Positions 9,821-64,000 of a stretch of DNA of 64,000 nt are shown in pieces. Positions within the stretch are counted from its first letter, which is position 1, and each line of letters opens with the position of its first letter. Source of the stretch: Neelides folsomi. Taxonomy: Eukaryota > Arthropoda > Collembola > Neelipleona > Neelidae. The notes beneath the pieces are model-generated. The model did no database searches and was not told where the DNA came from. It saw only the letters and a list, made by a program, of their open reading frames with translations. A program made the translations under genes and the position numbers. The DNA is taken from contig JAQGBZ010000024.1 in the NCBI GenBank assembly GCA_034687125.1, positions 1 through 64,000 of the forward strand. The letters are read 5' to 3'.

Positions 9821-12800
9821 TTAATAAACATTTTCTGAGGCGCTTTTCGCACTATTGACGAAAATTCCATGAAGCGTTTGAGCAAATTTTGTATTGAAAT
9901 CCACTCTTGCTATTTCTCTCAAGTCCTTCGAATCCAAAATAACGAGATAGTCAGATTTCTCTCGATTTCCCGAACTCACTGCAGTAAGAACAACGCCTTC
10001 ATCTTCCTCTGAATTCAAATCTGGATGAGGAACAAAAAGAGCTTCACCGCAAAAATCATCCTCTGAATCACTTTTGTAAGTTATAAATTTTCCAGTCAAG
10101 ACGTCTCCCTTACAAATCTAAAGTTTCAATTAAATATCAATTACAATTTTATTGACCACGTTGTTACCTCGATACATTGTAATTATATTGTATAAAGTAA
10201 TATTGGTGAATATTCTTAATGTTACGATTAATAGAATAAATCATTTAAATCATTTAAAAATAAAGTTGAATATGGATTCCATATGGAAAAGAGATGAAGT
10301 AAAAGAAAGTAAATTACGGAATTTCTAAAGATGCCTTCATCATAAATCCCAGTTGCATAATAGTATCTGTAAGGTTTGGTAAGATAACGAGGATTGATGG
10401 TTGGGAATTCCAGTCCGGGATCTCCAAAAGATTCCGGCGTCAAATGAATCTTATCACCTCTTCGCATTGCTATCGCTTCCTTCCCACGCCCTTCCTTGGC
10501 CACTAAATTTTTCTCAACTTGGACGGTCTAATCTCACAAATTGAAACATTATTGACAATTCCCCATTCATGACATTAATTTATCAACTTTTCACTCACAT
10601 TAATGTCAGATATGATCGGAATGACAAAGCGGGCCGGATGGGAAGAATCTTCTTTAGAGAATTCATTATTCCTCAATGACTTCAAGTTCCATTTTTCGAG
10701 TATCAAAGGACTTGGATATTTTATCAAGTCAATTATCAGCTAATAAAAAATATAATTTTAAATGAATTCTCTGAATTCAATATTTTTGTTTATCATATTT
10801 TATCATTGAGATTCTCACTTGACCATCTTCTTCAAAAGAGTTGATGAAATGAAAAACAAAGAAAGGATCTTCACTAATGTATTTAGTTTTCAAAACATTT
10901 CCACTTGATTTTTCAATGATGTGAAAGCGGTTCTAGCAAAAAAATGTATAAAAATATTAAATCCCAATAATGTTCAATAGTTCAATAGTTTAAATATTGT
11001 ACTAACTTTCTCTGCTGGTGTCCATTCAAAACAGTCTTTAATTGACTTCCCTTTAATTCCAATTTGAGCCAACTTGATACAATTAACCAAGAGTGGTTGC
11101 TCCATCATAATTATCTATGAATTATACATTCAAATTTCCAATCAATATGATAATCATTAAATAATCTTTTCTTAATTGGCGAGACGTGTCATCTCATTAT
11201 CATATCTTTCATTAATGAAGAAATTGTATCAACTCTCGTCACTTACATAATTCTCTGATAATGTAAAGGAGTGTGAATATGTCAAACAGGTCTTGAACGA
11301 AGATGGAAAGCTAGCAATGATCTTTGCATCCTTCAACGCTAAACACATACAATTATAGTAAAATACTATTGATTTAAAGGGCATTTGCAAGGAATTGTAG
11401 AAATTATAGCAAATTCAAATATAGTATTTTATTCATTTCATTTACCATCATTTCCATGTCCTGTTGATGAAGGTGGAATTTTAACAACATGATGCTTAAG
11501 TCCTGAAAATACAGTTGAGCCAATGTTCCATGTAACACCGTCAGCATCGCATATTGGATGGCTGGATAATTAAAATCAATTATTAGTATAGTAAAAACCA
11601 CGAAATTGCGAAATAAGGAAAATCTGTTTTTTTGAACAAACCTGCAATTGAGCATTGTTCCAGACGATTTCATCAGATCATGCTTTAAAATAAGTTATTG
11701 TTAATTATAATAAACGTTTGTTTAAAAACATTGAATATTATTATCACTTTAATAATTGTTACAAAAAATAGTTCATTTTAAAATAAATACTTACTCTATC
11801 TTTTTTCACAAGGTTCTCACAATCAATTGAATGTATGAAACATGTTTCAGATGCTGTAGTATAAAACATAAATTATGTATAACTGTTTTAAATTTTTTAC
11901 TTCATAAGCTTTTCATAAAAGTGAGAAAGATAATATTTTAATTTCAATACACTACCTGAGTATATTTCATCCTCAATTTTATAAAGAGCTCCAACATTAT
12001 TATCGGTCAAATCCGTCGGAACCTTTAAAATTAAAAATTAGTCTTTAATGTAGAGTACATTTATTTATGTATTCATCATTTATCCATGATTTTTTCCAGC
12101 AAATTTTATAAAAGCAAAAATAACTGCATTAAATTACTAAAAAACATTTTTTACAAGTGTATTGAAGATTCTTGAAAAAAAGCTTCTGGTTGGGTCTGGA
12201 TATGCCTTTGTTCCTAATTATGAATTAATTCATATTTAATAACACGTGTGTCTATTCCAATCAATAATAATGAAAATAATAATATGCCAATCAAACACTG
12301 GGAATTGCCCCTCATATGCTCCTCATATTCATTCATGCAAATCATTAACTTTTTCAATGATATAATTTAAACGTTACCAAATTCCGCATAAACAGGTCTT
12401 TTCGCAATCATGGCTTTTTTGTAAGCTTCGCTCTCAAGAAACTTTTGGGAAAAAGTCACCTTGAAAGAAATTTTAAAAATTAAGCTTTGATCATGAAAAT
12501 TAATCATGTATGGTACTTATTTTTATTATGCATAATTTTATGCAAAGGTATATGAGACAAATTATTTTTTATATCTACTAACAAAAACTATAGTACAATA
12601 GTGTATTGGTATCTTGTTTCTTTTAGATTATATGTCTATGTGGTTCATAAACGAGAATTTGACGGAAAACTGGTGGCTATAATAATCTCAATCTCTATTT
12701 AAAGCTATTTGTAAGCTGAAAACGTTCATTAAATAATAGTAAACAATACAACTCGTGTACTTTTTATGAGAAAAATTATTAAAAACTTACTTTTTTGTTG

Positions 12801-13084
12801 CATATTTCCATTTTGCATATGATAGCCAATCCATCGAGAAAATGATTTACCGTAAAATCATCATCAATGTCAAAAATTCCAGGTCCAACGCGCATAAATC
12901 GACCTTCTAACCAACTTGGAATTTCTCCTTTGATTTATTAAAAAACATCTCAATGAATAAATTATTAATGAAATAATAATCGCTTTGCAGTCATTATGTA
13001 TTTGACTTGAATACCTTTAATGTTTCCTTCAATGGGATCTGGATATTCTTTTGCCGAGTCGAAAAGGGCAGCAATTTGCGGCAT
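9821..13084 (-). CDS. Carotenoid cleavage oxygenase family, gene A (14 exons, 530 aa)
   Basis: A member of the BCO/RPE65/NinaB family of iron enzymes that cleave carotenoids or isomerise retinoids. Exons: 13015-13084, 12791-12927, 12378-12459, 12155-12213, 11956-12022, 11795-11853, 11642-11682, 11446-11561, 11247-11338, 11007-11114, 10819-10932, 10599-10739, 10318-10527, 9821-10117. All phases fit (1,593 bases). The four iron-ligand histidines are His173 (CSHP), His233 (YSHSF), His305 (FHFINSFEEDG) and His515 (LHGIF); second-shell Glu141 is in ASETC. The RVGPG block and a PDP membrane-loop motif (YPDPTRSFFSR) are present. It has no signal peptide, as usual for the family. First of the array and one of the most intron-rich. 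Shares introns and ligand spacing with B. The substrate cannot be told from sequence. Confidence 0.92.
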
Positions 13085-15684: not shown

Positions 15685-18600
15685 TTATCCCTTTCGAGGA
15701 ATAAAAATTCCATGGAGTGCTTGGGGCACTTGCGTAGAAACGACAGCTCGTCCCAATTCTTTCATTGTTTGCCCATTGATGAATACGAGGAAATCTTTGG
15801 GTCCTTCACGGCTATCCGAAATTGCGGAAATGATGATTCCATCATCTTCCGCCTTGCCATCAGGATGGGGAATGAATAGAGGTTCACCAGGATAATAAAA
15901 TTCACCATCTCTCCACAACTTCACTTCTCCGGTCTTGGTGTCCAATTTGCAAACCTTTGAATTTTAAAAAAACATTCAATTAAAATCATCTATACTACAT
16001 TACATAGTACATAGTACGAATATAATGACAATGACAATGACTGATAAATAGTATGATTTTTCCTTTAATTTTTTTTCAATGAATCCTTACAGAATTTTCA
16101 TAATATCCAGGTAGGCAAGATCCAGTTCCAAAGATGTATCTGTGGGGTGAGAATGTTTTCAATGGGTTGATGCACGGTCCTTCGAATCCAGGTTCGCCAA
16201 GTCCTTCAGGGCTCAAGATAATGCTATCATTATCCCTTCTGGCTGCTGCATTGGTGTATGGTAAAGTGACCAAGTTTTCTCCCTTGGCCACATCCTTTAA
16301 AAAAATCATTCAAGGTATTGAAGACATTGAGGAATTTAATAGAGAATTTGAAGAGGACCTTATTATTTAGATAATTTGAACATTTTCATCTTAATTACCT
16401 TCATGCTCTTGAGGATTGGAATGACGAAACGAGTGACTCTGGCAGGATCCTTGTCGCCGATGTTTCCTGATCGAAGACGAGAAATGAGCATTTTGTCCAT
16501 TACTTCAGCACTTGCATAGGCCGAGATGTCAATGACAAGTTGATCGCCTTCCTCGTACGAGTTCACAAAGTGGAAGTAGAAAAATGGCTTGTCAGCATAA
16601 TACTTTGTTTTCAACACTTCTCCAGTTTTCTTGTTTACAATATGGAATCGATTCTGTAATAAATTATTATTTAGTATGTGGGAAGAAATTTTAAATTAAT
16701 TTTAAATTCTCCCATGAGGAATATTAACTTTTTTGAACAAATTACTTAAAACTTTTTAAAACAATACTTTTGTATAAACTTTTGTATAATAAATTGCATT
16801 TTATTTTCCTTGCTTTAATTTATTCTTGTAGCTTCCTACATATTTATTTCGTTTTTATAAAATACAACCCGTTTAACTTTAATTGTGTGAGACGGTGGGG
16901 AATTTTATTCATCAACCTCGTTATGAACTTTTAAATGAACTTAAACTGAACTTGGGCTCAAACAATCCTTGACCTGAACTATAGCTCAACCAAGGTTTAA
17001 GAATATTAATCAAAGCTTAATGAAAATGTTTTCCCAAAGAACTAATTTAACATAAACTCGTATAATAGAGGTTTTATGGAAAGTACAGAGAATAAAAATG
17101 ACATAATTCAAGCTGTTGTTCACGTTTTTTTATGAAATAATTATAATGACTAACGAGTTCATTATTTTCTTAAATAAAGAAGATAGGAATTTCATTGGAG
17201 TTGATATTTATTAAAAAATGGAGCTTTTACCTTTTCCGTTGGCGTCCATTGCATGATGTCTTTAATCCCTTTTCCGTTCATTTTTGCATCTGCAATCTTC
17301 ACCACGTTCATGAGCAAAGGTTGCTCAACCATTATGATGTAGTTTTCTGCGTAATTACCAAAATATTTGTTAGAACTCACAAGTGACGTTCAATCCCTTC
17401 CATTGAATATAACTCACCTGACATGGCGAAGCTGTGGTAGTAGGAGAAACACGTCGACCACGATGGATAAATCGTCGCAATTACTTGTGATTTTTTAATC
17501 GCTATTTAAATAAATTGAAGCTAAAGTTTCATTTTCTAAAGGATTTAAACACCATTTAAACTCTCCATTTACACATTCTTTTTTACAGATCTCATTAAAT
17601 TGGACGTGATGCTAGAAAACGTTAAAAATTAATTATTCATTGTCTAAGCAAAATGATGCAACTTGAATTTACAAATGGTTCTATAGCCGAGGATTAAATA
17701 AATGAAGGAAAAATCCTTCCTACATAATTTGAGCGATAACTACTGAAAGTATTTTACTTCTAAAGTGTTAATTTTACATTGCAAAAAGCTTTCTACTTTT
17801 TTACAAAAATGCGAAATTAGCAATTACTAAGCTTTTGCTATTTACTGCATAAATACGTTATTTACAGGAAAATCTAAAAGTTTCATAAAAATGTCGGAAA
17901 TCAAAAATTATAGATTTCGTTGAAGATTTAAAATAATTGAATTAAAGATATGGTTGAAGCTTACTATTGAGTAATGCAGGATATAATTGTATGTTTGGAC
18001 CTCACTTTTTGATCAATCACTCGTCACTGTCATTCATGAGTCAATTGACTTACCATCTTTGACGCAACCGGAAGGAACAGATGGAATTTTCAAAACTTGA
18101 TATTTACATCCTGTAGTGAAACTAGTTCCAATATTGTACAAATCTCCATTTCTATCCCGAATCCTACATTTTACAACTCAATTAAATAATCCGTTCCCAA
18201 AGACAGAGACCGTAACTGAAAGTCATAAGGAAACACTAAAGAAGAAAAAAAGAATTGTACTCACGGATGAGCTGTTGACATGTGCGTTCCAAAAAGCTTA
18301 AAGTAGTCAATCTAAATAAGAATAAGAAGAAAAAACATCTTCAGTTTTTTTCCCTTCACTGATGGTCTTATTGTATTTAAATGGGTTTATTTATCAAAAC
18401 CACGCTAACCTTTTCTCCAGTAGTTGAGAGATTCTCTGCGGAAATGTTATGAATGTGACAACTTTCGCTCGCAGCTAATAAAAGGACAAAAGAGAGTTTT
18501 AATTATGATGCAGCACACGCAAGTGATAATTGTTGGGGAAAAACTTTTTAAAACAATTCCTCACCATAAATATCTCCTTCGATGGTGTACAAGTTGATTG

Positions 18601-21600
18601 CATCATTGTCAGTTATATCACAAGAGTTCTGTCAACACGGAAACTTATTATGCCTTAAGATGGACGCGGGTTTAATTGTAGCAAAAGCAGGTCTGGCTTT
18701 TCTCCTTGTTTTTGTAAAACTTGTCATGCATACACTTTTACAAAACCCAAGTACAAGCGAAATCTTATGCTAATTATTTATAAAAGCCAAGCTTTCATAC
18801 ATTTAAGCATACAGAAATAATTATGTTTATACAGAAATGTACAGGGAATGTTCATATTTACATAAACGCGTTCACAGTTGTCACTCATGAAGAAATCTAA
18901 TTAAATTAAAATCTCAAACACACACATTGTGATCATATTGTCATATAAAATATCTTTGTATTGTGTTTTTTCCTAAGCTGTATTAATTACTTATGTACAA
19001 GTATGTATATTATGTACATAAAAATATATTTACAACCATACACATATTGTGCATGTAGGGTATTTAGCTCTGTACATCAAATAAATATTTACATAATTAA
19101 ACTTACCTTTTTGTTCTTTAAACTTATAAACATGCACATGCAACTTATTAATATATTTTTTTAAATGATCTTAAGTATATACTCGAATCATAAGTAAGAA
19201 AATAATGGAATATTTACATTTTCCTTGTTTGGAAATTTATCGGTCTGTACATTACATATATTAAATATGTAAATATAATAATTTAAGAAGCATCTTATTT
19301 ACAGCCTTACAATTTAACTATGTATCTATTATAGAAAAAAGATCTTATAAAAAGAAATTTTCAATTCAAGCTGAAATGTGCAGCTTTAAATTCTAAGAGT
19401 GAGTGAAGAGCAATTCATTTTTTGCAATTGAAAAAAGTCTCCACGTTTAACATATTATAGAGTATTTATGCTTATGGCTGTACAAATTTACAATTCATCA
19501 TTTAACATGAACGTTCATTACTAAATAATTCTAGGAATTAAATAATTAAAATATTCTTTACAAATATTTTACAAATTATGTACAACGTTATTTACATGTA
19601 TTTACAAATGTACAACATGGATCTGTTTTGGAATCTGAAAAAGTTTAATGTATTTACAAAGCATTTAGGAAAATGCGACATGCATTAAGAAAATTACAAT
19701 CATTCAAGATAGGGATCTGAAATCATGAAGTCATTAAATGTTCCTTTTCATTCATAAAATTTGTTGTTCAAACAGAAATAAGAAGGTAGTTAAAAAATCA
19801 ATTGATTCATCCTTTCATGACATTTAAGCCTTGCAAAATTGTTTGATTCGTTTGTCAACTCACGAAAGCGCTGATGACCCGAGAAAAGAAATTCTTTGAT
19901 TCCAAATTCCCTTTAGTTGCAAATTCAGGAAGGATTGGTCTTTTTGCTTGGCTCGCTTTCTTGTACGCATCAGATTGCAAATACTTCTTGTCAAAAGTTA
20001 CCTAAATCAAATCCTCATTATTTTAAAATGCTCTCAATTATTACAAGCAAAAAATGGATTTGGAGCAATGTGCTTACTCGGCCGTCACGGATGTCAAATT
20101 TGGAAAGCATGGCATAACCGTCAATAAAATGGTTCATTGTGATATCCCCAATGTCGAATTTTCCAGGACCAACTCTCACATATGATCCGGATATCCAATT
20201 TGGAATGTTACCTGTAAAGAAATATTGCAATTAAATAATGAAAAACTTAATTATATTAAGCAATTAAATTATAAAAGGTTAAACAAATATAAGATAATAA
20301 TTGCATTTTTTATACATTTCAATGATGTTTGATCGAGTAGATGATAAAAAAATTGGGGGATATGAAAAGTTAAAAATGGAAAACCACAAGTTTGCATTGA
20401 AATAGTGATTTAGAGGAAGTTCGGAAAGAAGTCATGCAATTTAAGGAAGTGGAGAAACGGAAACGAGGATGTTTCATTTTATTGCTATCCGCATTTAACC
20501 CAAAGAAACATCCACGATAGCATTTATTACAGAATGGAAATGAATGGGGAATCAACTTGGATTGGCCTTGTGAGTCCAACAACACCACAAACAAACCTGA
20601 ACAACGTTTATCAAGGGAAAAGAAGAGTTAATAAAAATGGTGAGAAGAAAGGAAGGAAGTTAATTTACTCAATGATAGGAAATTCTCAAATAGTTAACTT
20701 TAACTCATTGCCAAAACAGTTTGATGTTGAACATTAGTGTAAAAAATTACCCTCCGTTATATAAGAAAATATTATTAATATACAAAAGTACTGTAGTATA
20801 ATATTTATGAAACACACCTTAATATTTAGTTAGAGTTTTTAAATGTAAACAAATTGTATGTAACAATAATATTTTTTTAATTGAACATTGAACTACTTAT
20901 TGTTTTATTATATCAGTAATTGACCATGACTTAAAGAGGAAAAAACTAACTACAGAATATGCATGACATATGGGAATCTTCATTTTGTCACAGTGTCACT
21001 TAATTAATAAGATCACCTTCTTGATATCTCCTTTCTTTGGTTCAAGGAGATAAAAAGCGGAAAATTGGATAACACGTTTAAAACCCTAACTTCTTTTTGT
21101 ATCATGATTGGAAGGAGAAGATAAGGAACAAATGATCAATATCGTTAAATGAGGAGAAAGGGAATGCAAATCTCTACAAGATCTTGTACGTTAAGACTTA
21201 AAAAGAACAAAATTTAAAAAAATTCGTTTAGTCTTTTCCTTCTCCTCCCCCGATATCTCCTGTATGGCGTCTTAAATCATCTTTTTAACCAATCTTGTCT
21301 ATTTTTGCCGTTTGATAATGCGATAATGGAATTCACCTTCAGAGTTTAATGTCAAATTTTACCCCTAGTTTTTAATTTTTTTATTTAAAATGATCAAGTT
21401 TTCTATTTTGTATTTAAATAACCAGATGAGATTAAAACTGAATGGAATGTGGGAAATTCCAAATTATGTATGCGATAGAAAAAAGTGGTTCGATATGAAA
21501 GGACTCGTTATTATAATTTATAAAGATAATATAGCCAAGTGCGTCTTAAAAATTGTATTTGTAGTTGTTTGAATGCGAATTTGAATGTTATAAAAAAGTT

Positions 21601-24600
21601 TGAAACTAGAAAATTGTTTGGGACAATAAAGGCTCAACTGGAAAATTCGACTTGCCATTTTTTACATGAGATGACATAATTTATACGAATTCTCTTTGGC
21701 CAATTGTAATTCAATTAGCTCGAGTGACGTGCAAAACTACACGAGTTCGGAAATTTTAGCAATTTCATTTGGGCATAAAAGTCATTTATGAAAGTTTAAT
21801 GTAATTTGTGCAATAAATAGAGTGATTGTCAATTTCTTTATCTTTGTCAATGTCATTTATATTACAAGTACTTTAACTTTAGCTTTAGAAGACATTAACT
21901 CTCTTCCTTTAATCTATTGGTGTTGTAAAGTAAGAGTTGATTTCGTAAATAGTCGCATATTTAAAATGAATTTAATTAAAATGTCATAAATCAAAATATA
22001 TTAGAGGTTCTAAAGATTTTTTTGCCTCATTTCCTTGAAATATAAATATTTTTTATATAAAGTAGCAATGACATACTTAATCAGTTGATATTTTCCACTC
22101 TAAAATCATGTGCTCAATTATTGTATTCTATAAAGCAATAAATTATTATGATTGAAAAAATATTAGTTAATAAATATTCGTGTATAATTTTGTAATACCT
22201 AATTACTTTGTAATGGAATAAACATCTTATCTTATTTACTTTTAGTCAAACTTGAACTTGAGATACAAAAGCACAAAACATAATGAAGGATAAATAATAA
22301 TGAATCAAAACAATTAAGAAATGTTTTCCAATAATTTTGTACCAATTTGTGTTTGATATGTTATTGGATTAATAAGATAATAACAATAAATAATTGTTAT
22401 TTGGGGGATATACGAGTACATTATTTAATTGATCAAATCACAAGTTTACGATATTAAATATTATTAAATATTCTGACAATTTTAATTAATCTAATTAAAA
22501 GTATATGTGGTAAATAATAGAATTGACTTAATGTGAAATAATAAATTATATTCAAGAAAGTACAATTGTCATTTCATCACCCAGCTTGTTAATTTTTTAT
22601 TAAGATGTAATCAAATTGGCATAAATGAAATACACAGAGTCAAAAGGAATCAACGCTCACCAACATGAGCCAAATGACTCAAATATGAATGAACCATGAG
22701 AAATATAATACGAATAATACCATATTGTAATAAAAGGAATTGTCTATGAAATGAACCATAGCCATTTAAATACAGGTACTATTCATGTGTATTCCAAAGG
22801 TACTTTTTTCCTCAAAGGTCTCATATGATTGATTTCGGCCTCTTGGAAAATAAATGTTTAATGGAAGAAAATGAAGTAAGTGAAGTATAGCAAGTCAACG
22901 TGAATAATGGGTTTTAACATGTGAGTTTAATGCTCTTTAAAGATTTCGTTATCCCATCTCGACATCATGAGTTGGTGGGAGTGCGTCTTTGCCATTCCCT
23001 TCTAAACGAGTGGGTTTGGGGCAAATGGGTTAGAGACGAAGTTCAGTAATTTCCTCAACATGCCCTCTGCAGCATGTTTCTCCTGAGGCGAGTGGAAAGA
23101 GAAGGTAAAGGTAAAGAGTTCCGCAACTCGCCATTTCCTCACACTGAATGTCAACAGAGTTGACCGTCGTCGGTACCTTTCGCCCCAAACCACCACTTGG
23201 AGCATCTCAATCCAGTTTGTGTCTCAACGTGGCATTGTAATTGGAAATCAATGGCAAATTCGCAATATCTCCTGCACGCCCATTCTCACATATACCTAAT
23301 GGAAGTTAATAGAACATTCTCGTTGGACTTGCAAAGATTGATACGCCGACTCGAACAGGGTAATTAAAATACACATGGAACACGTGTTCGGCCACGTACA
23401 ATAAATTAATAAGCAAATGGACACTCAACGACTCATGCAGGTTTTGAGGGATTTGAAAACCTCTCATATTCGTCTCACATTTCTCAATTAATATCAGAAT
23501 TTCTCTTGCTTAACAAAGAACAATGTGCATGCACTTTGATGTCAAGGCTAAATAAATCCTCATAAAGATTCCTTTTCTGATCTCTTGCTTTTTTAATAAA
23601 TAAATATGCGCTGACTGAAACTTGATCTGCTTGCTTCACACTCCCATGATTCCAACATTGAGTTTTGAGTTACACGAACTAAAGCGTCCCTAATGGCTCC
23701 TACTTCCAGTCAAGATCCAACTTAAGTATAACTTTTAAGTATACATTAAGTTTAGATAGTTAATGTAGTTTATACTTATATGGTTCCAACAATGATTGTG
23801 ATTAATTTGCTGTCCTCTCATTCGGAAAGATGTAATGCCCCTTCTTGGCATCTCTAATTCCTTGAGACATTTTATTAAACTTTATTTCCTTTCTTTTACA
23901 CTTTTTTAAAAGGAGTAAATGGAGTTTAGACATTACATTGAAATAAAGTATATGACCGATTGTGTAATTTGGGAGAAATACAACAATATTTAATACACAT
24001 AGTATATCTTATATTTACTTTTATATGAAATAACGTTTCGGTTTAACGTTAATGAACCTTTGGTCAATGCATCCTAAATTTTCTGAGCTAAGAATTGATA
24101 CAAAAGGAATTGTTTTAGTTTCAACATCCCGAGAAAAACAATTAGGGTTTTTATGTAGTTTTTTAAAACGGACGTAACTTTTATTACCTTTTTGCTTAAT
24201 TTGAGATAAATTTAACTGTCAGGTAATGTTAGGTGGAGATAATAAATGCTATTAAATTCTTTCATGTATTTTTAAATGAGCCAGATGATGGAGATTTAAT
24301 TGGTTTTTTGCTTACTGTTAAGACGTTAAAATAATTATTTAAACAAAAATGTAATAATTAAAGACTTTACATTTGTATGTTATGAATAATATTGGCTTAT
24401 GGGTAAGTAAAGAACAAGTTAAATGACACAATGTGTAATTTTGACAATGAATGCTCATTTGCAAATATGGTATTACACAATTTTAAGAAAAAATAATGTA
24501 AAATATAAATATTGAATTTGTATTTTGCATCTTCCATGCAATATTCAAATATTTGCTTGATCTTCTACGACTCACTCCATGAATGAACATAAGAGTACTT

Positions 24601-25677
24601 ACTTTTAGAACACACTTCAAATCTAATTTATACATAATTTAAATCATAAATACTTCCCACAAATGAAAATTTCAGCATGTAAATATTTATACCCCAGTGA
24701 CTTGTTGTTTTTATTTACTGTTCAATTTTCTCTAAAATTCCATTTTAATTGGGGAATACGTTCAAAACCGTTAAGTGGAGTCAAAAATAATCATACATTA
24801 ATAAGAACAGTAATGCTCATAATAAGTAAACTCTGGTTAAATTCTAACATTTAAATTTTTTGAACCAATAAAAATGATAATTTTATGTCAGCATTACTAA
24901 TTTTTTATTTAAAATTACTAAAGAAGAACTTCCAGTACGACTTAACGTAACTAAGATCAGCTATGTAGAACGAATAATTTTGTTTAATTATCTTCATTGA
25001 GTTTGAAGTAATGAATCAAAACCACGTCAGTGAGTCGTGTAATAAAATGCTATAAGCCTAATAAGACAATACATGAATAAAATCTAATTATTTTGTAAAT
25101 ATTGTATCATATTTCAAATGCATGAATAGTTTCAAATACATGAATAGCTTGTTATGTAATCATAATCATACATGCAAAGTATAAGTATAGCTACAATCTA
25201 TCCTATATCCGTTCCTGTTTATTACTGTGCATGTAAAAATAATTTAATTAATCGAAAAGTAAATGAAGAAACAAAGACGATCATTGCATAGGAAAAACCT
25301 CGATCATAAATCGTTCAATGGTAAGTATTGCATAAGCTATTGGCTTGTGGTTTGTTTTACACGAGCGAGTGACAAATAAAATGACAAAACATTAATCCCT
25401 ATATTTAACCGTTTAAATAAAAGTTTTTATGAAAGTGAAACATTCCCATTAACTAAATTCAACCGATAATAAATGTCCTCAAAAATACAATATTAGTAGA
25501 ATGAAAGTGAAAAAATGAAATCTTATTATCCTGAGGGAGGCGAAAGGTTCAACAAGTGGTGGCTGTAAATAAAGAGTGGTTGGAAATAGAAAACAAAAAC
25601 TCACCAAAAAGTTCGGCAACATTCGGTTCGGAAACTTCCTCCTGGTTTCTAAAAATCTTCGCAAGGCTTCCAGGCAT
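15685..25677 (-). CDS. Carotenoid cleavage oxygenase family, gene B (12 exons, 519 aa)
   Basis: Same enzyme family as A. Exons: 25605-25677, 20078-20211, 19864-20001, 18565-18628, 18410-18474, 18265-18311, 18054-18163, 17418-17501, 17231-17346, 16399-16653, 16091-16294, 15685-15954 (1,560 bases, all in frame). Exon 1 encodes only 24 codons (MPGSLAKIFRNQEE...) and is separated by a 5.4 kb intron. I accept it because its phase-1 donor joins exactly to GNIPNW, and a TATA/initiator pair lies upstream. Ligands: His173 (TAHP), His233 (YYHSF), His305 (FHFVNSYEEGD), His511 (LHGIF); Glu140 in ASES. The PDPCK-like loop motif is missing (residues NLESKNFFSR instead). Exon 4 (NSCDITDNDA) uses the least certain acceptor. 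A-like in spacing and introns. Largest gene of the array. Confidence 0.9.
18853..19660 (-). promoter_or_regulatory. Cluster of TGTAAATA motifs inside intron 3 of gene B
   Basis: Eight copies of TATTTACA on the plus strand occur within about 810 bases; read in the sense of gene B they are TGTAAATA. At RNA level UGUAAAUA fits the Pumilio consensus UGUANAUA; as DNA it resembles a forkhead site. Only one copy in the other orientation was noticed (near 19266). The stretch is otherwise AT-rich and non-coding. Function is inferred; a decayed simple repeat is the alternative. Confidence 0.4.
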
Positions 25678-25865: not shown

Positions 25866-25965
25866 GAGGATAAAGTTTCCCCCTTATTTAAGCCTAACTT
25901 TTCTCTCATCCCTTCATCCCTACAAATGTCTCTGATCCCTCTGTGAAAAGATACGCATTGGGATA

Positions 25966-29216: not shown

Positions 29217-32200
29217 TTACTTTTGAACCAAGATTCCGTGACAAGATAAAGGAATTGGGGATTTAAATGCAACTCGAGCAATTTCCTTAAGGTCTTTTGC
29301 ATTCAAAAATAAAAGAAAATCATCTTTATCAGCCTTATTGACAGTGACGGCCGAAATGAGGATTCCGTCGTCTTCTTGCTTTCCTTCGGGGTTGACAACA
29401 AAAATGGGCTCGCCTGGATTGTTGTCTTCGCTCTCCTTCCACACCAACACTTTTTTGTTCGAGAGGTCAATTTTAATTATCGAATGTGAGAAATCACATG
29501 GGTTGATTGTGGAACAACCGTAGAAGTAATTATGTTTCTTTGTATAATATTTCTTATTCATTGTCGGCATCTCCATTCCACTTTCGTTGACGAGGAGTTC
29601 TGGAGTGAGGATGATTTGATTTCCTTTACGAACAGCTGTGGCTGTTGTGTCCACTTTTACCAAGTTGACTCCTTCAGTTACTTCTTTCACGTCTTGTACA
29701 ATTGGGACGACGTATCTTTTGGGAGAGGGCAAATCAACGTCGTCGTAGGCACTTTGGCGTAATTTGGACAGGAAGAGCGAATGGAGCACTCGAGGAGACT
29801 TGTATGTGTTGATGTCGATAATGATCTGGAATTATTGATTGAAATTAAAATAAAATTAATTTTATACAATTTATGTTAAATATTCCTGTGATTGTAATTT
29901 GTTAATTTTAATAACTACTCATACTCATATAATTGGTTTTAGATTTTAAAAATAATCTTACTTGACCATCTTCTTCATAACAGTTGATGAAGTGCATGTA
30001 GTAAAATCCAATATTTGACCAAAATTCAGTTTTAAATACTTTTCCAGTATCCTTTAAAATATAAAATATTTTTAAAATAACAATATGAATAATCTGATTA
30101 AATAAATTATAAAGATGAATCTTAAATATAAAAGATTTATAAAATAAAGAACGGCATTTTATATCATAAAGTTTAGAAGCATTTAAATACAAGCACAGAT
30201 TTTAGTCATAGTCAAATGCACATAAATGGTTTTAATTGAAAAAAGTGAAAATTGATTAAAGTTAAATTCTAATAATAATAATTCTAATTCTCCCTACTCT
30301 TTCAAAAGTAGGAAGATTTCGAATTAAAAATTGTTTTTGTATGAATTATGTTTGTACAATTCATATAACAATAACTTTGCATTAACAATTTTTATTCATG
30401 AGCGAGATTTATCGAGCTGAAACCAAAGACTGAAAATTGCAAGGCAAAAGAATAGGGAATAGCTCCTGGTTTAAACTTAACTATCTTGATAACTTGTATG
30501 GAGATTTAGCTTTTTAAGTTTGATCTGTGTAAAAAGATAATTAAGAATTTAAATAAAATTAACTTGTTCTAATAAAATATCTAAGGTTTAAAAGTTTTAA
30601 AATATTTTACAATGATAAATGATCAAGAATATAAAGTAAAGATAATGTTGTTGCAATAAGCAAATATTATTTGTTAGAAAGTAAACAAAAGAAAAGCAAT
30701 AATATAAATAAATAAAAACAGTGTAAATAATATTCTTTTAAAGGTCAAGATCGAGTAAATAAACAAATAAATTAACATAGTTAAGTAATTGCTTCAATTA
30801 AATGAGAACTAACCTTATCTACAATGTAAAATCTGCATGCTTCAGTTTCGCCCTTCCACTCAAGCCAATCAATACATGTGTCCCCTTTAACCAAAGAAGC
30901 GGCCAATTTGGACACGCTCACACCAAACGGTTGTTCCACGAAAACTGCATAAAAATAAATTATAAATTAATTTTCACTTTTCCAATCTATATAATTCAAA
31001 ATTACCATAATTTATTGTATTATACATAATATACTACAGTTACAGACACACCATACATATTATGTATGATATGTCAGCTTAATAATAATTAGCGAATAAT
31101 TTATTGTGTTTTTGTACTGAGGTATTTCTTTGTCATTCCAAAACTGTGTGCTTGGCCGATCATGGTTTTGAATCTGCAGGGGATCGTTGCAACTGTCACT
31201 GCTTTGCTAAGAATCTCTTTTGATGACGCTCCAGAGCCAGAATTTGATCCAGGCATTTTGTAGAAGTGGTATTTTAATCCCGTCATTATTGTAAAACCCA
31301 CGTTCCATAAATCTCCCGTGTAAGGGCACACAACTGGATGAGCAGATTGGCCATTAACCTATTTCAAGGATTCAAATGCCCATTCACACGTGTATTTAGT
31401 GTATTGATTGAAATACCATAAATATGCAATATTTAAGACACCCACCTTAAAATATTTATTTGAGTCGTATTTATTATCATGGCTTGTTAATCCGCTCATA
31501 TCAACTTTCCTGTGTAGTCAATTATAAAATTAGTATAATTATTTATTTGGCATAAAGTTAATATTTTATGAAAATTTTTCTATCAATAAAATATTGACAA
31601 ATCTGCTTATAACTCACCTAAAGAAACTTGTATCAGAAGTTACGAATAAATCATTGGCTATCATGAAAGGAGTACAATAGTCGTTGTCCGTAAATTCTGG
31701 GAGCTAAAAAATTCAAAATGTTTAATAAAAATAATGTGATTTATTGAAGATATTAATCTCCCATAATGCGTGGGAGTATGTACTTAATATAATATTTTAC
31801 CAAGGAGGAAACAACTCGTGAAAAGAAGCCTTTATTGGGATCTGGATATGCCTATAATACAAAAATTGAAATTTAACACTTTTTCATTCAAGAATTGCAT
31901 TTTAATTCATCAAGTTAAGGTGGAATAAAAGCACAAGGATTCTGTAAACCTTGTTTTAAATGTTTTTATTCTATTTATTAATGGGTTAATATTTTTGCCA
32001 GTTGCAAAACCAACTTTGCCAGGATCAATTAATTAAATTTGCCAATGCGTTAATTTGCCAGTTGAAACTTTCGTTTTTGCCAGTTTAAAAATCAGAGTTT
32101 ACCAGTATATATTATAAACATTAATTCATCGTAATAATGAATATTAGATATAGTTTAAACATGTTATAAAGAATAAAATAAAATGTTATTGAACAAGAAG

Positions 32201-47001: not shown

Positions 47002-50000
47002 TTACTTATTGAGAAACAATCCATGTAGTGCTTGGGGTATATGAGCCTGAAAAATATTAAAATATAATGTTAAAAGTGGTAAAATAATATTTATGTTACA
47101 CATTATAACTTAAAAAATAATTAAAATTGTCTCTTATTAAATTGATAACGAATATATAGAACAACCTTGTATTTTTAAGTAATTACAATTAAAATAATGT
47201 GTTTGAACAAACCTTGAATTGCGCTCTTCCTAATTCCTTCAATGTTTTTGCATCAAGAAAAATTATAAAGTCATTTGCGCCTGGTCTCGCGTCAGTTATA
47301 GCAGAAATTAAAACTCCATCATCTTCCGCAACTCCGTTTGGTTTCGGAACAAACATAGGCTCACCAGGCTTTAACATAAAATAAATCACACTCAAAAATT
47401 ATTGCCAATTAATTACATCATAAACTTATAATGATGAATACTTGAAACATATCAAGAAATAGGTTATACTATGCCTACATATATGAGTACTGCGTGTGAC
47501 GTATGATATAGAATTTTATTTAAAACTTACAAAACAATTTTTTCCGCCTCCTCTCCAAAGCGTGACTTCTTTAGTTTGAGAATCAATTTTGCAAATTGCG
47601 TTTTCAAAAAAGCCTAGAAAATATCAAAATGAGTTTATTGAGTTAGAATGTCTAAATAACTGTCTAACCATTTAATCAAATACCGCATCATATTACATAA
47701 CTGAGATTATTAGGTTAAAGTATTTAATTAAAATGGGTATTCTACGATGTTGCATACCAGGAGCAGCAGATCCAGTCCCCCAAAATACGTTATACTTTCT
47801 TCCAAAAAACTTTCGATTAACCGACGGGAACTCGAAGCCCGGCTCCGTAAGGATTTCAGGGATGAGAATTATTTGGTTTCCTGCCGAGACGAGAAGAATG
47901 TTTTAATTTAATCATTCTTTTATTAAAGAATTTAATAATTAAATAATTGACCTTTGCGCACAGCAGAGGCATTGCTCTTCACTTCGACTAGATTAATATT
48001 CTCAGGAGTGTCTTTAAAGTCAGTGACTAGAGGAAGAACAAATCTTTGCCCACATGGCTGCTTCCCTTCATCAAAAATTCCAGCTCGGAGCTTGTCCAGG
48101 AACATGTTATCAATAGCTGATGGGTCTGGATACGCAACTAAATCCACCTATGATAAAAACAACAATGTTTACAAACAATAAAACAAACGTTTTTTCATCC
48201 CATTATTATTCACTCATCATTTTTTGCAAATGCCGTAATTGGGTAATTATTAATTTTAATTACATAAAAATTACACAAAGGAAATAATAATGATTGAGAG
48301 CAAAAAACTTGAATTTTTTATAAAAAATAAAATAGGGTTAAAAATCAAAAAGGAGCGTTTACCACAATTTGATTGTTTTCCTCATAACAATTGATGAAAT
48401 GGAGGAAAAAGAAAGGATCTTGAGCCGTAAAGTCGATCTTCATCACAGATCCTGTGCTTTTATTAATGACGAAAAATTTGTTTTTGAGATGGGGCATCCA
48501 AGCGAGCCATTCTTTCAAGCTCTGATTCTTAAACACGGAGCAGATCGCAGCCTTGACAAGCATCACATACGGTTGCTCGATAAAGATTATGTAGTTCTTT
48601 GTCATCCCTGATCAAATCAATCTTATTAATTCATAACCGTTTCACTTTGCATTTAATGACTCCTCATTTCTCAATCCCTACGCATTAAACAGAGTGAGTG
48701 AAACAAAGTGACTGAATACTCTTCATATTATTCCATATAATATAATATGATTGAAAGTAGAAAGCAATTTATGAGGATGACACAATTTCTACAAATTCAG
48801 TGTGCAAAAGGTCAATGGAGTCGAGATTCATGAAAAGCATACCAAATGAATGTGTGTAGCTGCACATCGTGCTGTGAGAGCTTGAGATGGTCGAGATCTG
48901 GTCCAAACAATTAAATATTAAAATCAACGAAATAATGGGAATATTAAAAATTAAATATTTGACCCATTCAAATTCAAAATAAGTTTCATTTGTATATCAT
49001 TAATTAGCGTATTTGTACAGGAATTTAATTGTGAGTAGACCAAGGTACGAGATTAAGGTTAAACAATCACCGTCTTAGATTTCTTGAAGATTTCTTTGGC
49101 TGACTGGTTGGGTGCACCAGGGGGAATTGCTACGATATGGTACTTGAGACCAGTTAAGACAGTCAGGCCCACATTGTATGTGATCTGACTCACAGGATCA
49201 ATAATTGGATGGGCACCTGTGGGAACAAATTAATTTTTGCAAATCTGCCAATTAAAACCCAATTACTCACTCATGATGTTCATTGCAAAATGGGTGTTCG
49301 TGTCGTATTTTTCGCCCGTGTGGAGACTGCAGAGATCTATCGATCTTTCGATCATAAATCCAAGCTCATTTTAATAAAAATTCTCGCCATTATCATTTAA
49401 TTTGCTGATGTTGTAAGTAAATGCTTACCTGAAAAAGGAAGTCTCAGAAGAGACCACGATGTTGTTCCCCATTTTGAATACGGAAAGTTGGTCGTTGTCG
49501 GTGAGTTCGATAGGATTCTATATAGAAGGGAAGTAATGGGGAAACAATCAGTTTTGATATATGCACACGTCCCTCTCGCGCAATTACGCATTCAGGATAT
49601 TTAGATGTATGAATTCGTTATGATGTTAGTGAACTATAATTCTCATAATTGCTTCCACCCTTACATACTTAATGATAAATAATGGACAGATTCACTTACC
49701 AAAGAGGAAATAAATCGCGAGAACATGTTTTTACATGGGTCGCTGTACGCTTTAGTTCCAAATTCGCAAACCACACTGAAAATGAAGTCATATATCATTT
49801 TTTTCCTTAAGAACATTTCCTACTTCTTTCAATTCATTGAAATGGTTTGAATGAAGATGATGAAAAATGGAAGGGAAAATGATGCACTTACGGCCGTTGT
49901 GCTAGGCAAGCTCTTTTGTATGCATCTGACTGAAGAAACTTTTTCTGGAACTTGACCGACTCTCCATCAATTTCAAATTTGGAAATAATGGCATATCCCT

Positions 50001-50743
50001 ATAATGGCAAAAGCAATTAAAATTAAAATAAAAAATATTGATAAAAATATTTTTTGGGAGAAATGAGTAAAATAAATTGATCGTACATCCAACCAGTGAT
50101 TGAGAGTAAAATTTTGAAAGTCCCACAGTCCTGGACCTACTCTAAAATCCAAAAATCACTTCTCATTAATTCATGAACTAAAAGATAATTAAAAGCCCAA
50201 TTTACACATTTCCACGCTATCAACATGTGTAAATTATAATTTTTACAAGAGTCCAACTTAAAATATTTAAGAATTTTTATAAAGAAATGCACAAGAGCGT
50301 ACTAATAAATTATGCACTAACCTCAAAAACGTTCCTTGAACGTACTTTGGCACGGATCCTGTTTATCAAGGAAAATTATTGTTAGCTTTGATCAATTCTT
50401 TTGTTAATACACTCAAAACTCATTTCCTTTTCAAGCCAAATATTTAATTTATTCATAAAAACCTGACATGTACGATTTATTTGCATACAATATGCAAAAT
50501 AAACTCGCGAATTTTTTTAAAAAAGTAACACTCCAAAATGAGAAAATATTGATTTACTGACAAAAGTGAAGATAAGCGTCAGGCTTTTATGACATAAATA
50601 ATGTTATAAACAATTGAGGTTGAGAATCTCAAGTTGAGATCTTGACAAGTAAAATAATATTTCTTACCATTGATGTGAGCCTCTTCTTTTTCGTCCATTT
50701 CCTCCGTCGTTCGAAAGAGCTTTTCGAGCCTTAGTTCAGGCAT
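47002..50743 (-). CDS. Carotenoid cleavage oxygenase family, gene F (15 exons, 520 aa)
   Basis: Same family and the most intron-rich copy. Exons: 50668-50743, 50322-50358, 50087-50141, 49892-49998, 49700-49775, 49429-49517, 49271-49344, 49071-49216, 48843-48897, 48363-48607, 47952-48147, 47758-47880, 47531-47613, 47213-47368, 47002-47046 (1,563 bases, every phase fits). Ligands: His174 (SAHP), His236 (THSF), His308 (LHFINCYEENN), His514 (LHGLF); Glu142 in SSETSFF. The loop motif is nearest to the vertebrate PDPCK (YSDPCKNMFSRF). Also typical are RSIDLCSLHTGEKYDTN and LISAITDARPGANDF. Start MPELRLEKLF is chosen because exon 1 joins in phase 1 to GSVPKYVQG. F and G are arranged head-to-head. 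Very likely an active oxygenase; cleavage position unknown. Confidence 0.93.
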
Positions 50744-57298: not shown

Positions 57299-59521
57299 AT
57301 GCCTGAGGCCCAAGTTGGAAAATTGTTCATGTCGACGGAGGAGCTCACGACTGCTGAAGAGTCCCATATTAACGGTACTTATAAACCAATTTCACTCTTA
57401 ACCTAGTTAATAAATAGCATTCGTGTGAGGATGGTAAAAAGTGCGCGAGATGCATTTCTGCAACAAATGACCACCATTGACACATGTGTCTCTTTGTCTT
57501 TATAGGGAACGTACCAGATTATGTAAAGGGAACTTTCATTCGTGTCGGTCCGGGGAAATGGGACATGAATGGATTTACCATGAACCACTGGCTTGATGGC
57601 TATTCAATACTTTCAAAATTCATCATCAATGGAGACCAAGTATCCTTTGAGAAAAAGTTCCTCAGGTCAGAAGCTTACAAACGGGCCATGGTGGCCCAAA
57701 AGCCAGTCATCACTGAATTCGGAACCAAAGCATTTCCAGATCCTGCCAAGAGTCTTTTTTCTCGCTTTGTTACCTCCCTTGTAAGTTAAAAAATCAAATC
57801 AAAAATCTTTTTTTTACTTTTTTGCAAAATATCTTGATGTGGCGTTGAATGTACATTATGTGTACATTTTTCACTTGCTTTGCACTCTCAACTCGGCATG
57901 CAAGAAAGATTGAAATGTAAAGAACGTAACATGTAAAATCATCATCTCATTTTTCTAGTTCCCAATTGAGCTGACTGACAACGATCAGCTCTCGCTTTTC
58001 AACTATAATTCAACATGCTTCGCCACAAGTGAGACTTCCTTCTTCCATGAAATCGAACCTTGCAATCTGAGCACAGGGGAAAAATTCGACTCCAATAAAT
58101 GTTTCGGACAAGTCAAGTTGAACTCGCTCTCTGCCCACCCACAGGTCGACCCGAAAACTGGGGTAAGCTGACCCACATTTCCCAAATCGCCAAATCATCT
58201 TAAATTTATTAAAATGACCATTAGTGAACCATGTTCTGTGAACATCTTTCGAGATTCCTATGCTAATTGAACTTATCCTTCCAGATAATGTACAACATTG
58301 GCTCAACTCTCCTCACTGGGCTCAAGTATCATATTATGGCCATTCCTCCTGCGGCAAGCAATCAATCAGTAAAAGAAAACTTTAAAAAGTCCAAGACGAT
58401 CGCGACGATCTCGGCAACTAAATCCTGCTACCTCAGTTATTGTCACTCTTTTGGGATGACGTCCAAATACATCATTTTCATCGAGCAACCGTTTGTTCTT
58501 AATTTCAAGAAGGCTATGGCTGGAGCCGTGCTCAAAACCCAATCCTTTAAAGAATGGCTGGAATGGCACCCAGAGGAAATCATGAACAGATTCTTCATTA
58601 TTGAAAAAGGTGATTAGACCTTCCAAGACATTAATTACATCCTTTGTTTACGATTTGGCTTTTGAGTACAAGATCAACATCATTGCATCACCATCTATTA
58701 TTATACATTAATATCCTTGGTCTACTCAAAAGCTGAATGACAGTTAATTATTAAACTTCAAAATTATCAATTAATAATTATAATTAATATATTGATTCAA
58801 CTCATTTCCAGAAACGGGAAAAGTTTTGAAAACGGAGATCGTGTCAAAAGATCCATTCTTTTTCCTCCACTTCATTAACTGCTATGAGGAGGACGATCAC
58901 ATTGTGATGGATCTCACCGTTTACCCGGATCCTTCCATGCTTGACAACATGTACCTCTCAAAACTCCGAGACGGGATTTTCGACGAGGGCGAACAACCCA
59001 ATGCTCAAAGATTCGTCGTCCCGATCGTCTCCGACATCCACGACGTCCCTGAAAACATTGATTTAGTCCATATTAAGACTGAGGGGACGGCTGTGCGAAT
59101 CGGGAAGCAAATCGTCCTCACTCCGGAAATCCTCACCGAGAAAGGTTTTGAAATGCCGGTGATCAACAAGAAATATTTTGGAAAGAAGCATAATATTTTT
59201 TGGGCCACGGGATCGAAGGCTCCTGGACATTTCGAAAACGCCCTTTTCAAATATGACAAGAAGAAGCGAGAAACGATCCTTTGGAGAGAAGGGAATTTTA
59301 ATTGTCCAGGCGAGCCCGTGTTCATTGCCAAACCTAATGCATTGCGAGAAGACGAAGGCGTTTTAATTTCCGCTGTGACGGACACGAGAAATAATTATAG
59401 TGATTTTCTTCTCTTTCTTGATGCCACAACTATGGAGGAGCTTGGGCGTGCGAAATTTAAAGCTCACATTCCTCAAAGTCTTCATGGGATTTTCCTTAAT
59501 ACACTCGCTGTAGCACTGTAG
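57299..59521 (+). CDS. Carotenoid cleavage oxygenase family, gene G (5 exons, 529 aa)
   Basis: Same family, the only copy on the plus strand. Exons: 57299-57374, 57506-57780, 57959-58162, 58285-58609, 58812-59521 (1,590 bases, in frame). Ligand positions nearly coincide with bovine RPE65 (180/241/313/527): His177 (SAHP), His239 (CHSF), His313 (LHFINCYEEDD), His518 (LHGIF). Second-shell glutamates are Glu142 (TSETSFF), the Glu of CPGEPVF and that of EELGRA. The PDPCK-like loop reads FPDPAKSLFSRF. Exons 2, 4 and 5 each fuse several exons seen in F, so many introns were lost. The start MPEAQVGKLF resembles F's N-terminus. A polyadenylation signal AATAAA lies at 59871. Codon use is GC-richer than in A to D. 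Confidence 0.95.
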
Positions 59522-60730: not shown

Positions 60731-60813
60731 GACGCCGGAACAAACCGGAACGTTCCGTTCCGATTCCGATCGTATTCCGAATTTTTACGTTACGTTCCGG
60801 TCCGATTCGGATC
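60731..60813. repeat. TTCCG-rich imperfect repeat
   Basis: A GC-rich island of interspersed TTCCG/CGGAA units (GTTCCGTTCCGATTCCGATC in its middle), followed by more of the same. It is unlike its surroundings and looks like a fragment of a dispersed repeat or transposon end. Confidence 0.5.
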
Positions 60814-62702
60814 ATGTTGTCTATATGTTAACTACTGGACCACTTTTAATAGCCACTTGAAACCTTGACTTAAAAATCTCCCCCTATCCCTTGACAAAAA
60901 TGACAGTTCGGTTTGGAATTAAAATGTATTGAAATGGAGAGAGGAAAAGAATTTGTTAAAAAACGTTTCAATATGAGCGTTTGTCTCAAACTCAAACTCG
61001 CCAACTTTTCCAAAATAATTCAAAAGTTTATGTATCTCTTCCTTGACAATGCCAACATTGTCGCAGATTTCTCGAAGACCATCGGTTTAATCAAAAAACC
61101 CTCCCATCATTTTGACCTCGGAAAGATTCCGGTCAGGTTGGTATTTTTATTTCAGCCAAACTATTATAGTGAGTGAGAAAAGTCCCCGAACAAATTTAAA
61201 GTTTAATATTTTATAAAGGTAGATATTGAGCAAATTATAAATAAAAACTAAACGATTAATTTATACAGACTCATTTTTTCATGATTTGGGGTAATTAATG
61301 AAAATTGAACATACTACGGAAATATTGTTTTTGTTATTGTGAATACTATAAAACACAAAGAGGTCTGTTCTTTAACAAAAAAGAACTTAACGTAGATTTG
61401 CGTACGAGCGAAATACTCGTTTGGCAAGATAGGAAACAGCATTTCTCTTCTTAATAAAGCCCAATCTTTAAAATAATGCACTCTCTTTTGTTTACTCATT
61501 TACGTCAACATTAATACAATAAAACATGCACAGCTGCATTTATCTATTAGCCAGTATGAAGAAGAGAAAAATATTTTTATCTTATTTAGTTAATGCCAAT
61601 TACTGCGTATTTAATTGACCGTCTTATACAACCTCCAAGAATAGAAATACCTAACGCGATTCAATAAAATAATTAAGTATGGAAATTAAATGATGTATAA
61701 TTCGTACATTTTTTGATTTTCTAAACAATAGAACTTCTTATAAGGAATTCTAAATTAATGAAGTTTATGTGCAACATTATTCTTTGTAATATAATAAGAG
61801 ATATATAAATGAAAAATTATTGTTCTTTTGCAGGAAATGAACAGCTTAACCCTTACCACAAGCTAAAGGTTCCTTATAGGAAATTATATGATGTGCAACG
61901 AGCAATTCTTTATCTTCACTTCTTCACACTCCCACTTTTAATACCTTTTTATCTTATTCATTAATCGAGAGAATTACACGAACACTTTACCTCTTTATTC
62001 TTTCAGTTATTCGCATTTTTATTTATCTGTTCTTTGTCGCATTCTAGTGGTTGTTTTATTTGCAAAATTATAAATTCAAAGGTTTTACAAGGAGTGCCTC
62101 GTCTGGCGCTACATCATCTTGTGCAAAAAAACATTGCCAAAATCCACTCTATGCAATATTTGTAGATGAACTCAAAGAAGCCTCCTTTGTCATGCTTTAA
62201 AATTGGTTAACTTAAATATTTACTAATAATGCTTACTAAATGCTCTTACTAAATGTTTGCTTCCTTATGCTTTTATGCTTTGGTATTTGCAATTCGATTA
62301 AACAAAATGATCAAATAATGTAATTCAGAAATTGTTAAAAGTATTCGATTTATTTTTTGCTTTCGTTTTTAAATATTCGATTTCGATTCTTTTCAATAAT
62401 AATATTTGTTATTTCAAAATGATCTTATTCTACACTTTGCATTAGTCTTTATTATTAAGAGATATTCTTATATTTACAAATAATTAATAAAAATAAGTAA
62501 CATAAATAAATAGGATAAAACATTGTTAATAAAATGGTAATCAAACACATTAATAATAAAAACAATAAAAAAAGCATCAATTGCATATTGATTTTATGCA
62601 TTGTAAAATTTGCATATTGATACAAATTTGCATTAGGATATTTGGCATTGTTGGATAATTGATCGATAGGATTTCCAATAACTGGAATTGAGCCGTTGTG
62701 AC

Positions 62703-64000
62703 TCAATTCATGAAAAGGCCATGGAAAGCAATAGGGATGTGTGCTTTGAATTGAGCTCTTCCGAGTTCCTCCATGGTAGTGGCGTCGAGGACGAGAAGAA
62801 AATCATTGGCACCCGGCCGGGTGTCTGTAACTGCGGATATCAAAACTCCATCATCTTCCCTTATTCCACCAGGCTTGGGGATGAATTGCGGTTCTCCAGG
62901 AAATGTTCCGGTTTCCTTCCAAACGACCGTCTCGTTTTTCTTTGCATCGTATTTCATGATCGAATGCAAGAAAGCTCCGCTCATGATCCCAGCTGAATAC
63001 AAGTAGGAGTATTTCTTTCCTTGGTACTTCTTATTAATAATCGGCATCTCGATCCCTTCCTCGGTGAGGATCTGTGGAGCGACTGTGATTGAGTCTCCGG
63101 TTCTAACAGCCGTCGCGTCGCTTTTGACTGCAACGAGATCCACTCCCTCAGGAGTGTTCTTGAGATCCACCAAGGGAAGAACGTAACGATGGACAGCGGC
63201 TTTTGACTTTTGCTCCATTTTCCCATCTCTGAGGTCAGCAATATAAAGGGAGTCAAACATCTCAGCATTTTCATATGAATTAATGTCCAGCACAATTTGG
63301 TCATTTTCTTCATAGGCATTGACCATGTGGAGAAAGAAAAAGGGATCTTTGGACATGTATTCTGTTTTCAACACTTTTCCAGTCTCTTTTTCAATGACCC
63401 AGAATTTGTTCCGTGTGCCTTCCCGCCATGTGAGGTATTCGTTAAAAGAGGGATTTTTCATGTAGCAGAGAGCGGCCTTCTTGATGTCCATCACATAGGG
63501 CTGTTCCACAAAGACGATGTATTTTTTGGTCATGGCGAAGGAATGGCAATAGCTGAGCATGCCTGAGAATGCAAAGCTGGAGGGAATGGAACAAATGATT
63601 TTGGCCTTTCCCATCAAATTCTTTGAGCTTTGATTGCTAGCTGGGGCCGGGATTTTGAAAATGTTGTACTTGAGGCCGGTAATGACGCTGAAGCCGATGT
63701 TGTACATGGTGCCGTCGGTGTCGCGGAGACAATGGGCTGAGGCCACATTGCAGCCGAAAAATTTGTTCACGTCGCACTTGTCCCCGACGCAAGAAAGAGA
63801 GCATGGGTCGATTTGGCGGAAGAAGTTCGTCTCGCTTGTAGCATAGACATCCTCACCGAGTTGGAAAAGATTCACCGAGTCATTGTCAGTCAGCTCGATG
63901 GGCATGATAGCAGAGAGAAACCGGGAGAACATTGATTTGTTGGGATCCTTGAACGCTCGAGTTCCGAATTCTGTAAGGACAGGCTTCCCGGCCTTTTGGG
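62703..64000 (-). CDS. Carotenoid cleavage oxygenase family, gene H (5' end beyond the window)
   Basis: Same family. One uninterrupted exon of at least 1,298 bases runs from the right edge to the stop at 62703. It begins inside the block QKAGKPVLTEFGTRAFKDPN, so only roughly the first 90-100 residues are missing. All ligand blocks are present: SAHC (with Cys replacing the usual Pro), YCHSFAM, LHMVNAYEEND and FHGLF; the Glu of TSETNFF, FPGEPQF and EELGRAQF also remain. The loop reads FKDPNKSMFSRF. Not one of the introns seen in A to G over this region is kept, but the frame is intact and codon use is GC-richer. This fits cDNA-mediated intron loss of a functional gene rather than a dead retrocopy. 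Upstream introns outside the window cannot be excluded. Confidence 0.95.
   Translation of the reverse strand, partial: QKAGKPVLTEFGTRAFKDPNKSMFSRFLSAIMPIELTDNDSVNLFQLGEDVYATSETNFFRQIDPCSLSCVGDKCDVNKFFGCNVASAHCLRDTDGTMYNIGFSVITGLKYNIFKIPAPASNQSSKNLMGKAKIICSIPSSFAFSGMLSYCHSFAMTKKYIVFVEQPYVMDIKKAALCYMKNPSFNEYLTWREGTRNKFWVIEKETGKVLKTEYMSKDPFFFLHMVNAYEENDQIVLDINSYENAEMFDSLYIADLRDGKMEQKSKAAVHRYVLPLVDLKNTPEGVDLVAVKSDATAVRTGDSITVAPQILTEEGIEMPIINKKYQGKKYSYLYSAGIMSGAFLHSIMKYDAKKNETVVWKETGTFPGEPQFIPKPGGIREDDGVLISAVTDTRPGANDFLLVLDATTMEELGRAQFKAHIPIAFHGLFMN

Follow-up and report, generated by a model that had tools for sequence, protein, structure and literature searches.

Eight carotenoid cleavage oxygenase genes in a row, separate from a NinaB ortholog, in the springtail Neelides folsomi

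Among described carotenoid cleavage oxygenase (CCO) sets, those closest to the one reported here come from the prawn Exopalaemon carinicauda, with seven BCO-like and two isomerooxygenase-like genes (PMC7363964), and from animals carrying BCOL genes, whose expansion is extensive in some species such as lancelets (PMC5643517); carotenoid oxygenases are also mentioned for a spider mite (PMC4046741). Here, we describe eight CCO (PF03055) genes lying in a row at 9.8-64.4 kb of contig JAQGBZ010000024.1 (394,897 bp; hereafter C24) of Neelides folsomi, the window, that is, the whole stretch analysed, being the first 64 kb of this contig (the whole assembly has 840 contigs totalling 75.1 Mb). Judged from its sequence, the array is an old set of animal CCOs that arose by serial tandem duplication.

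The host was called a pancrustacean by mitochondrial gene order alone: on the mitochondrial contig, trnL(taa) lies between cox1 and cox2, which we take to be the ancestral pancrustacean order. On this ground, an origin from a mite, a nematode or a tardigrade was rejected.

The array and its dispersed relatives

A genome-wide PF03055 search yielded 29 exon-level matches, of which 18 fall in eight clusters on C24, each with at least one exon-level match above the curated cut-off (the in-window part of gene H scored 266 bits against a cut-off of 27). The other 11 matches represent one locus each on contigs C500, C12, C389 and C506, names that we also use for the genes themselves. Outside the array there are thus at least four CCO genes, three of the array clade (C500, C389 and C506) and one NinaB ortholog (C12). 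No further CCO locus appeared among the matches listed for the protein queries G and C506 in a genome search, and no PF03055 match lies to the right of gene H on C24. The three dispersed copies of the array clade sit on separate contigs of 38-56 kb, and "dispersed" is meant in this sense only.

Genes were modelled locus by locus with a protein-to-DNA aligner that allows introns, and the models were rerun with the family profile, GC donors now being permitted against a penalty. Seven array genes lie on the minus strand: A (9821..13084; 14 exons, 530 aa), B (15685..25677; 12 exons, 519 aa), C (29217..34966; 12 exons, 527 aa), D (36957..39782; 10 exons, 530 aa), E (41268..44061; 8 exons, 542 aa, the last exon having 937 nt including the stop codon), F (47002..50743; 15 exons, 520 aa) and H (62703..64000 and on to contig position 64,416; 2 exons, 518 aa). 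G alone lies on the plus strand (57299..59521; 5 exons, 529 aa). The end of the window cuts H, exon 2 of which spans 64,183-62,703 and exon 1 64,416-64,341. Each of the 12 models is closed by a stop codon, and each begins with ATG except that of C12, the first exon of which was not found by the gene modelling. No internal stop occurs in any of the eight array models, although introns could be placed freely at GT-AG sites and, against the penalty, at GC-AG sites. Exon 1 of B (25677-25605) lies behind a 5.4-kb intron and scored 39.6 in a separate scan, in which the next candidate in that stretch reached 14.4 and the opposite strand at most 6.7. In D, two GC-AG introns restore the conserved NYIVFIEQP and NCYEDDNKIVIDV stretches, and a start at a second ATG eight codons later is possible, which would give 522 aa. 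The histidine count in the array, the tblastn comparison, the four-reference tree and the dN/dS analysis were made without exon 1 of B; the residue table, the three-reference tree and the pairwise identities rest on the final models, in which this exon is included.

An original prediction, made from the letters of the window, had described eight consecutive genes of one family, seven of them complete and 519-542 aa long, with the iron histidines in all eight and no other convincing gene in between. The eight PF03055 clusters and the single clade described below bear out the first point, and models A-G span exactly this range of lengths. The four iron histidines are present in 8/8 array genes and in all 12 genes found in the genome. 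As for intervening genes, 15 frames of at least 80 aa, lying between the genes or in the long first intron of B, were searched against Pfam: none reached the cut-off, one gave two weak matches at chance level (E 0.041 and 0.055), and this search thus detected no recognisable foreign gene between the array genes. Nor did degraded CCO copies turn up when the twelve CCO proteins were compared by tblastn with contig bases 1-80,000; among 558 pieces at E <= 1, three lay outside the modelled exons, the best at E 0.084. No Rfam family reached its cut-off in the window, and ARAGORN with bacterial settings reported no tRNA there.

The contig begins only 9.8 kb to the left of gene A. In this left flank, at 2814-9217, three of six searched frames correspond to exons of citrate synthase, SCO1 and a Got1/Sft2-like gene.

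Descent and age of the array

In the four-reference tree, the eleven genes other than the NinaB ortholog form one clade (support 100/99), which was also recovered with three references and is separate from NinaB. Of the twelve genes, C12 alone groups with NinaB (99/98 in the three-reference tree, 100/99 in the four-reference tree). A phylogeny had been proposed as a check for copies brought together from unrelated clades by misjoins, and all eight fall in the 100/99 clade together with the three dispersed copies. Within it, the three-reference tree groups F+G+H (100/99), C+D (90/89) and A+B (93/89), E having no settled place. These three sets of array neighbours are also neighbours in the tree, as predicted by serial tandem duplication. 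The dispersed C500, C389 and C506 sit with C-H and not outside (branch 84/83), their position relative to E likewise being unsettled. We also considered the array as a clade on its own; forcing it costs 14.0 in likelihood (p-AU 0.021), a moderate rejection. When "array" is treated simply as a label, it shows no clear clustering in the three-reference tree, where 86/500 shuffles were as low, and the same shuffle on the four-reference tree gave 22/500.

Identity across the 28 pairs of array proteins ranges from 37.0 to 62.0%. In seven tested pairs, nonsynonymous divergence (dN) is 0.32-0.52; synonymous divergence (dS) has reached saturation in six pairs and amounts to 3.69 in the other one, so that dN lies far below dS in 7/7. 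The correspondence of the three neighbour sets between array and tree, taken together with saturated dS, points to old tandem duplication rather than an assembly artefact. The supposition that haplotypes or misjoined contigs were taken for tandem copies could appeal to the draft state of the assembly, with its 840 contigs, but the level of identity, the saturated synonymous sites and the agreement of array neighbours with tree neighbours make it scarcely credible, and its haplotype version is already refuted. A decaying pseudogene cluster with one or two working genes is very unlikely too: the very unequal intron numbers and the glycine at the Glu417 site of the dispersed copy C506 would fit decay, whereas the lack of internal stops (with introns freely placed) and the low dN relative to dS in every tested pair speak against it. 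Intact, constrained coding sequence and retained iron ligands thus agree with the original prediction that this is no pseudogene graveyard, and we infer that the array proteins are probably working enzymes.

The array contains 70 introns, with between 1 and 14 in each gene; 68 have GT-AG borders and the other two, both in D, GC-AG. The twelve genes together have 45 distinct intron positions (counted without exon 1 of B). Position 124/0 is occupied in 10/11 array-clade genes, H being the exception. Positions 168/0 and 503/0 recur in A, B and C12, the NinaB ortholog, an argument for common animal descent and against recent bacterial transfer. The last third of the alignment is free of introns in C, E, G, H, C500, C389 and C506, and holds some in A, B, D and F; H retains the first intron only, and 14 are found in F, which is close to G and H. 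Such a distribution fits intron loss from the 3' end, of the kind that recombination with partial cDNA would produce.

Active-site residues and predicted function

The NinaB ortholog (C12, 18.8-20.9 kb) has NinaB as its best solved relative (4e-105, vs 9e-68 for RPE65). It keeps all four of the isomerase-linked residues Leu63, Met339, Phe357 and Lys498, at which mutation of moth NinaB shifted the ratio of 11-cis to all-trans product (PMC11142922); in the array clade, these residues occur in 0, 4, 0 and 0 of 11 genes. The moth numbering fits, because eight mapped residues match the letters named in that paper; NinaB Trp17 lies outside the aligned piece and thus outside the residue comparison. 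On these residues, one gene bears the marks of a visual isomerooxygenase and eleven do not.

The palmitoylation-type cysteine is found, among the twelve genes, only in F, as SDPCK; in mouse BCO2, the SDPCK variant was still palmitoylated and a change of Cys to Ser was not (PMC7221588). C12 has Ser in place of the PDPC cysteine.

Glu148, Glu417 and Glu469 of RPE65 are presumably the second-sphere glutamates. All three are present in 6/8 array genes, and Glu469 is kept in 12/12 genes, as is Phe103. At the iron-adjacent Thr147 site, Thr is found in D, Ser in A, B, C, F, G and H, Gly in E and C506, Asn in C500 and C389, and Ala in C12 (the Thr151 site of NinaB).

It seems fairly probable that the array encodes dietary carotenoid/apocarotenoid oxygenases, diversified for catabolism or apocarotenoid production and not for visual chromophore supply. 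Each product would be a non-haem-iron dioxygenase, either cytosolic or loosely attached to membranes. In the tunnel of its predicted propeller, it would bind a carotenoid or apocarotenoid obtained from the diet and use O2 to cleave a conjugated double bond, which would yield two carbonyl products but involve no trans-to-11-cis isomerisation of the NinaB kind. The duplicates would have diverged in the pocket and probably also in expression, giving a catabolic and modifying set for carotenoids and apocarotenoids that could serve pigment clearance and apocarotenoid production, and the visual chromophore would come from the NinaB ortholog C12. The bond cut by each copy cannot be told from its sequence. 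Catabolism as the default is supported by the knock-down of three BCO-like genes in the prawn, where loss of BCO-like6 raised hepatopancreas beta-carotene fivefold and loss of BCO-like1 led to death (PMC7363964), together with a crab BCO1-like gene whose expression increased almost 15-fold at one level of beta-carotene in the diet (PMC11171921).

Several observations weigh against this assignment. Knock-down of the prawn BCO-like3 gave no phenotype (PMC7363964). Thr147 is changed in 10/11 array-clade genes, and in moth NinaB changes at the matching Thr151 site strongly lowered oxygenase activity, as did mutation of Phe106 (PMC11142922), so that a number of copies may have low activity or different substrates. 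Asp replaces Glu148 in 4/12 genes (C, D, C389 and C506), and Glu417, kept in 11/12, is changed to Gly in C506. The NinaB ortholog C12 shows changes of this sort too, with Ala at the Thr site and no anchor cysteine, so they are not specific to the array. The Phe357 column adjoins a gapped stretch of the alignment and is less sure than the others, and the trees had four solved proteins as their only references.

Among the alternatives, supply of retinal or 11-cis-retinal for opsins, with a multi-copy NinaB/BCO1 role split by tissue or stage, is unlikely. The array belongs to the same family as NinaB and BCO1, and crab NinaB-like and BCO1-like proteins are both reported to lower beta-carotene in producing E. 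coli, the NinaB-like one more (PMC11171921); yet the genome has in C12 a NinaB ortholog with the isomerase-linked residues, three of the four of which are missing from all 11 genes of the array clade. The role in retinal supply that the original prediction had considered is weakened by the same finding, although this alternative leaves room for central cleavage to all-trans-retinal by array members. A comparably small chance attaches to copies having moved to other conjugated or phenylpropanoid/stilbene-like substrates, as a cluster for detoxification or chemical signals. The changes at the active-site Thr in 10/11 genes favour such a shift, as do the variable pocket sites, the majority letter having a share of 0.36-0.55 at six NinaB pocket sites, vs a mean of 0.59 over 513 columns in the eleven proteins (six sites, no statistical test); the nearest solved relatives of G, however, are animal carotenoid/retinoid enzymes (1.7e-79 for RPE65, 3e-10 for lignostilbene dioxygenase). 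More doubtful still is that the cluster makes lineage-specific signals or defences derived from apocarotenoids or terpenoids, with retuned CCOs (Thr147 to Ser/Asn/Gly, Glu148 to Asp) that lack the anchor cysteine cleaving different polyenes, possibly including products of the unusual polyprenyl-synthase-like and squalene-synthase-like genes on contig C468 described below.

No carotenoid-synthesis gene was found above cut-off in an exon-by-exon search, which could miss a gene and did not include lycopene cyclase; the best genome match to the crtI family reached 44 bits against a cut-off of 238. The substrates are thus probably dietary. Phytoene synthase was considered for six PF00494 matches, and none looks like it (by eye, with one C468 frame searched against solved structures); the frames are squalene-synthase-like (two on C468, one each on C649 and C283) or NDUFAF6-like (C112), mostly by eye. 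A mite or aphid that makes its own carotenoids, a reading first suggested by these matches, was rejected on this basis and on the low crtI score.

Separately, C468 contains two repeated units, at 23.0-27.7 kb and 37.3-42.1 kb, each with a PF00348 polyprenyl-synthase-like gene beside a long intron-poor frame; the long frames measure 553 and 560 aa from stop to stop. One of these frames was compared with solved structures: its C-terminal part resembles squalene synthase (9e-47), and its residues 66-179 align with the final ~105 residues of a HAD-type drimenol synthase (3.5e-5). For an arthropod, C468 may thus carry a cluster of terpenoid genes that includes a fusion enzyme; relatives occur on C649 and C283. 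A DIOX_N search aimed at isopenicillin-N-synthase-like genes gave eight exon-level matches, and the CD36 lipid-receptor family gave 45 on eight contigs, a count that is not informative by itself.

Comparison with described carotenoid oxygenases

The literature listed in our searches, as far as its text was accessible, did not contain an eight-gene tandem array, this extent of anchor-cysteine loss, or such a split from a NinaB ortholog, and no springtail or other hexapod CCO array was named in the titles and abstracts among the matches listed, which cover few subscription journals. The original prediction had set the array against about three vertebrate genes and one in Drosophila; the expansion is real, and its novelty was overstated given the prawn and the lancelets. 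Eleven copies beside one NinaB in a very small arthropod genome suggest that pancrustacean carotenoid cleavage diversified apart from vision, and with their varied introns, anchor cysteine and active-site residues, the array genes form a ready set for testing which residues of animal CCOs determine the substrate and the site of cleavage.

Insect NinaB (PDB 8fty) shares the family and the iron ligands with the array and has one ortholog in the genome, C12; the array clade differs in lacking Leu63, Phe357, Lys498 and, F excepted, the PDPC cysteine. Vertebrate RPE65 (PDB 3fsn) is the best solved match of G, and its Phe103 is kept in 11/11 genes of the array clade, whereas Cys112 and Thr147 are each found in 1/11 and Trp331 and Tyr338 in none. 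The BCOL proteins of lancelets, nematodes and molluscs resemble the array as a lineage-specific animal CCO expansion (PMC5643517), and the PDPCK cysteine that they lack is also missing from 10/11 genes of the array clade; the match of G to the BCOL structure PDB 9plv is much weaker (8.8e-33), and the trees were built with references other than BCOL. BCOL has been called secreted (PMC7221588), whereas the array proteins have no signal peptide by eye, 6/8 starting with MP.

The prawn BCO-like set also comes from a non-insect pancrustacean and likewise comprises CCOs with an RPE65 domain and four iron histidines (PMC7363964). It was obtained from a transcriptome, with no genomic arrangement given in the accessible text, and is compared here by description and not by orthology; its proteins measure 527-693 aa, with one printed as 195, vs 518-542 aa in the array. 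The array is a clear gene-family expansion, of a kind already known in the prawn and in lancelets.

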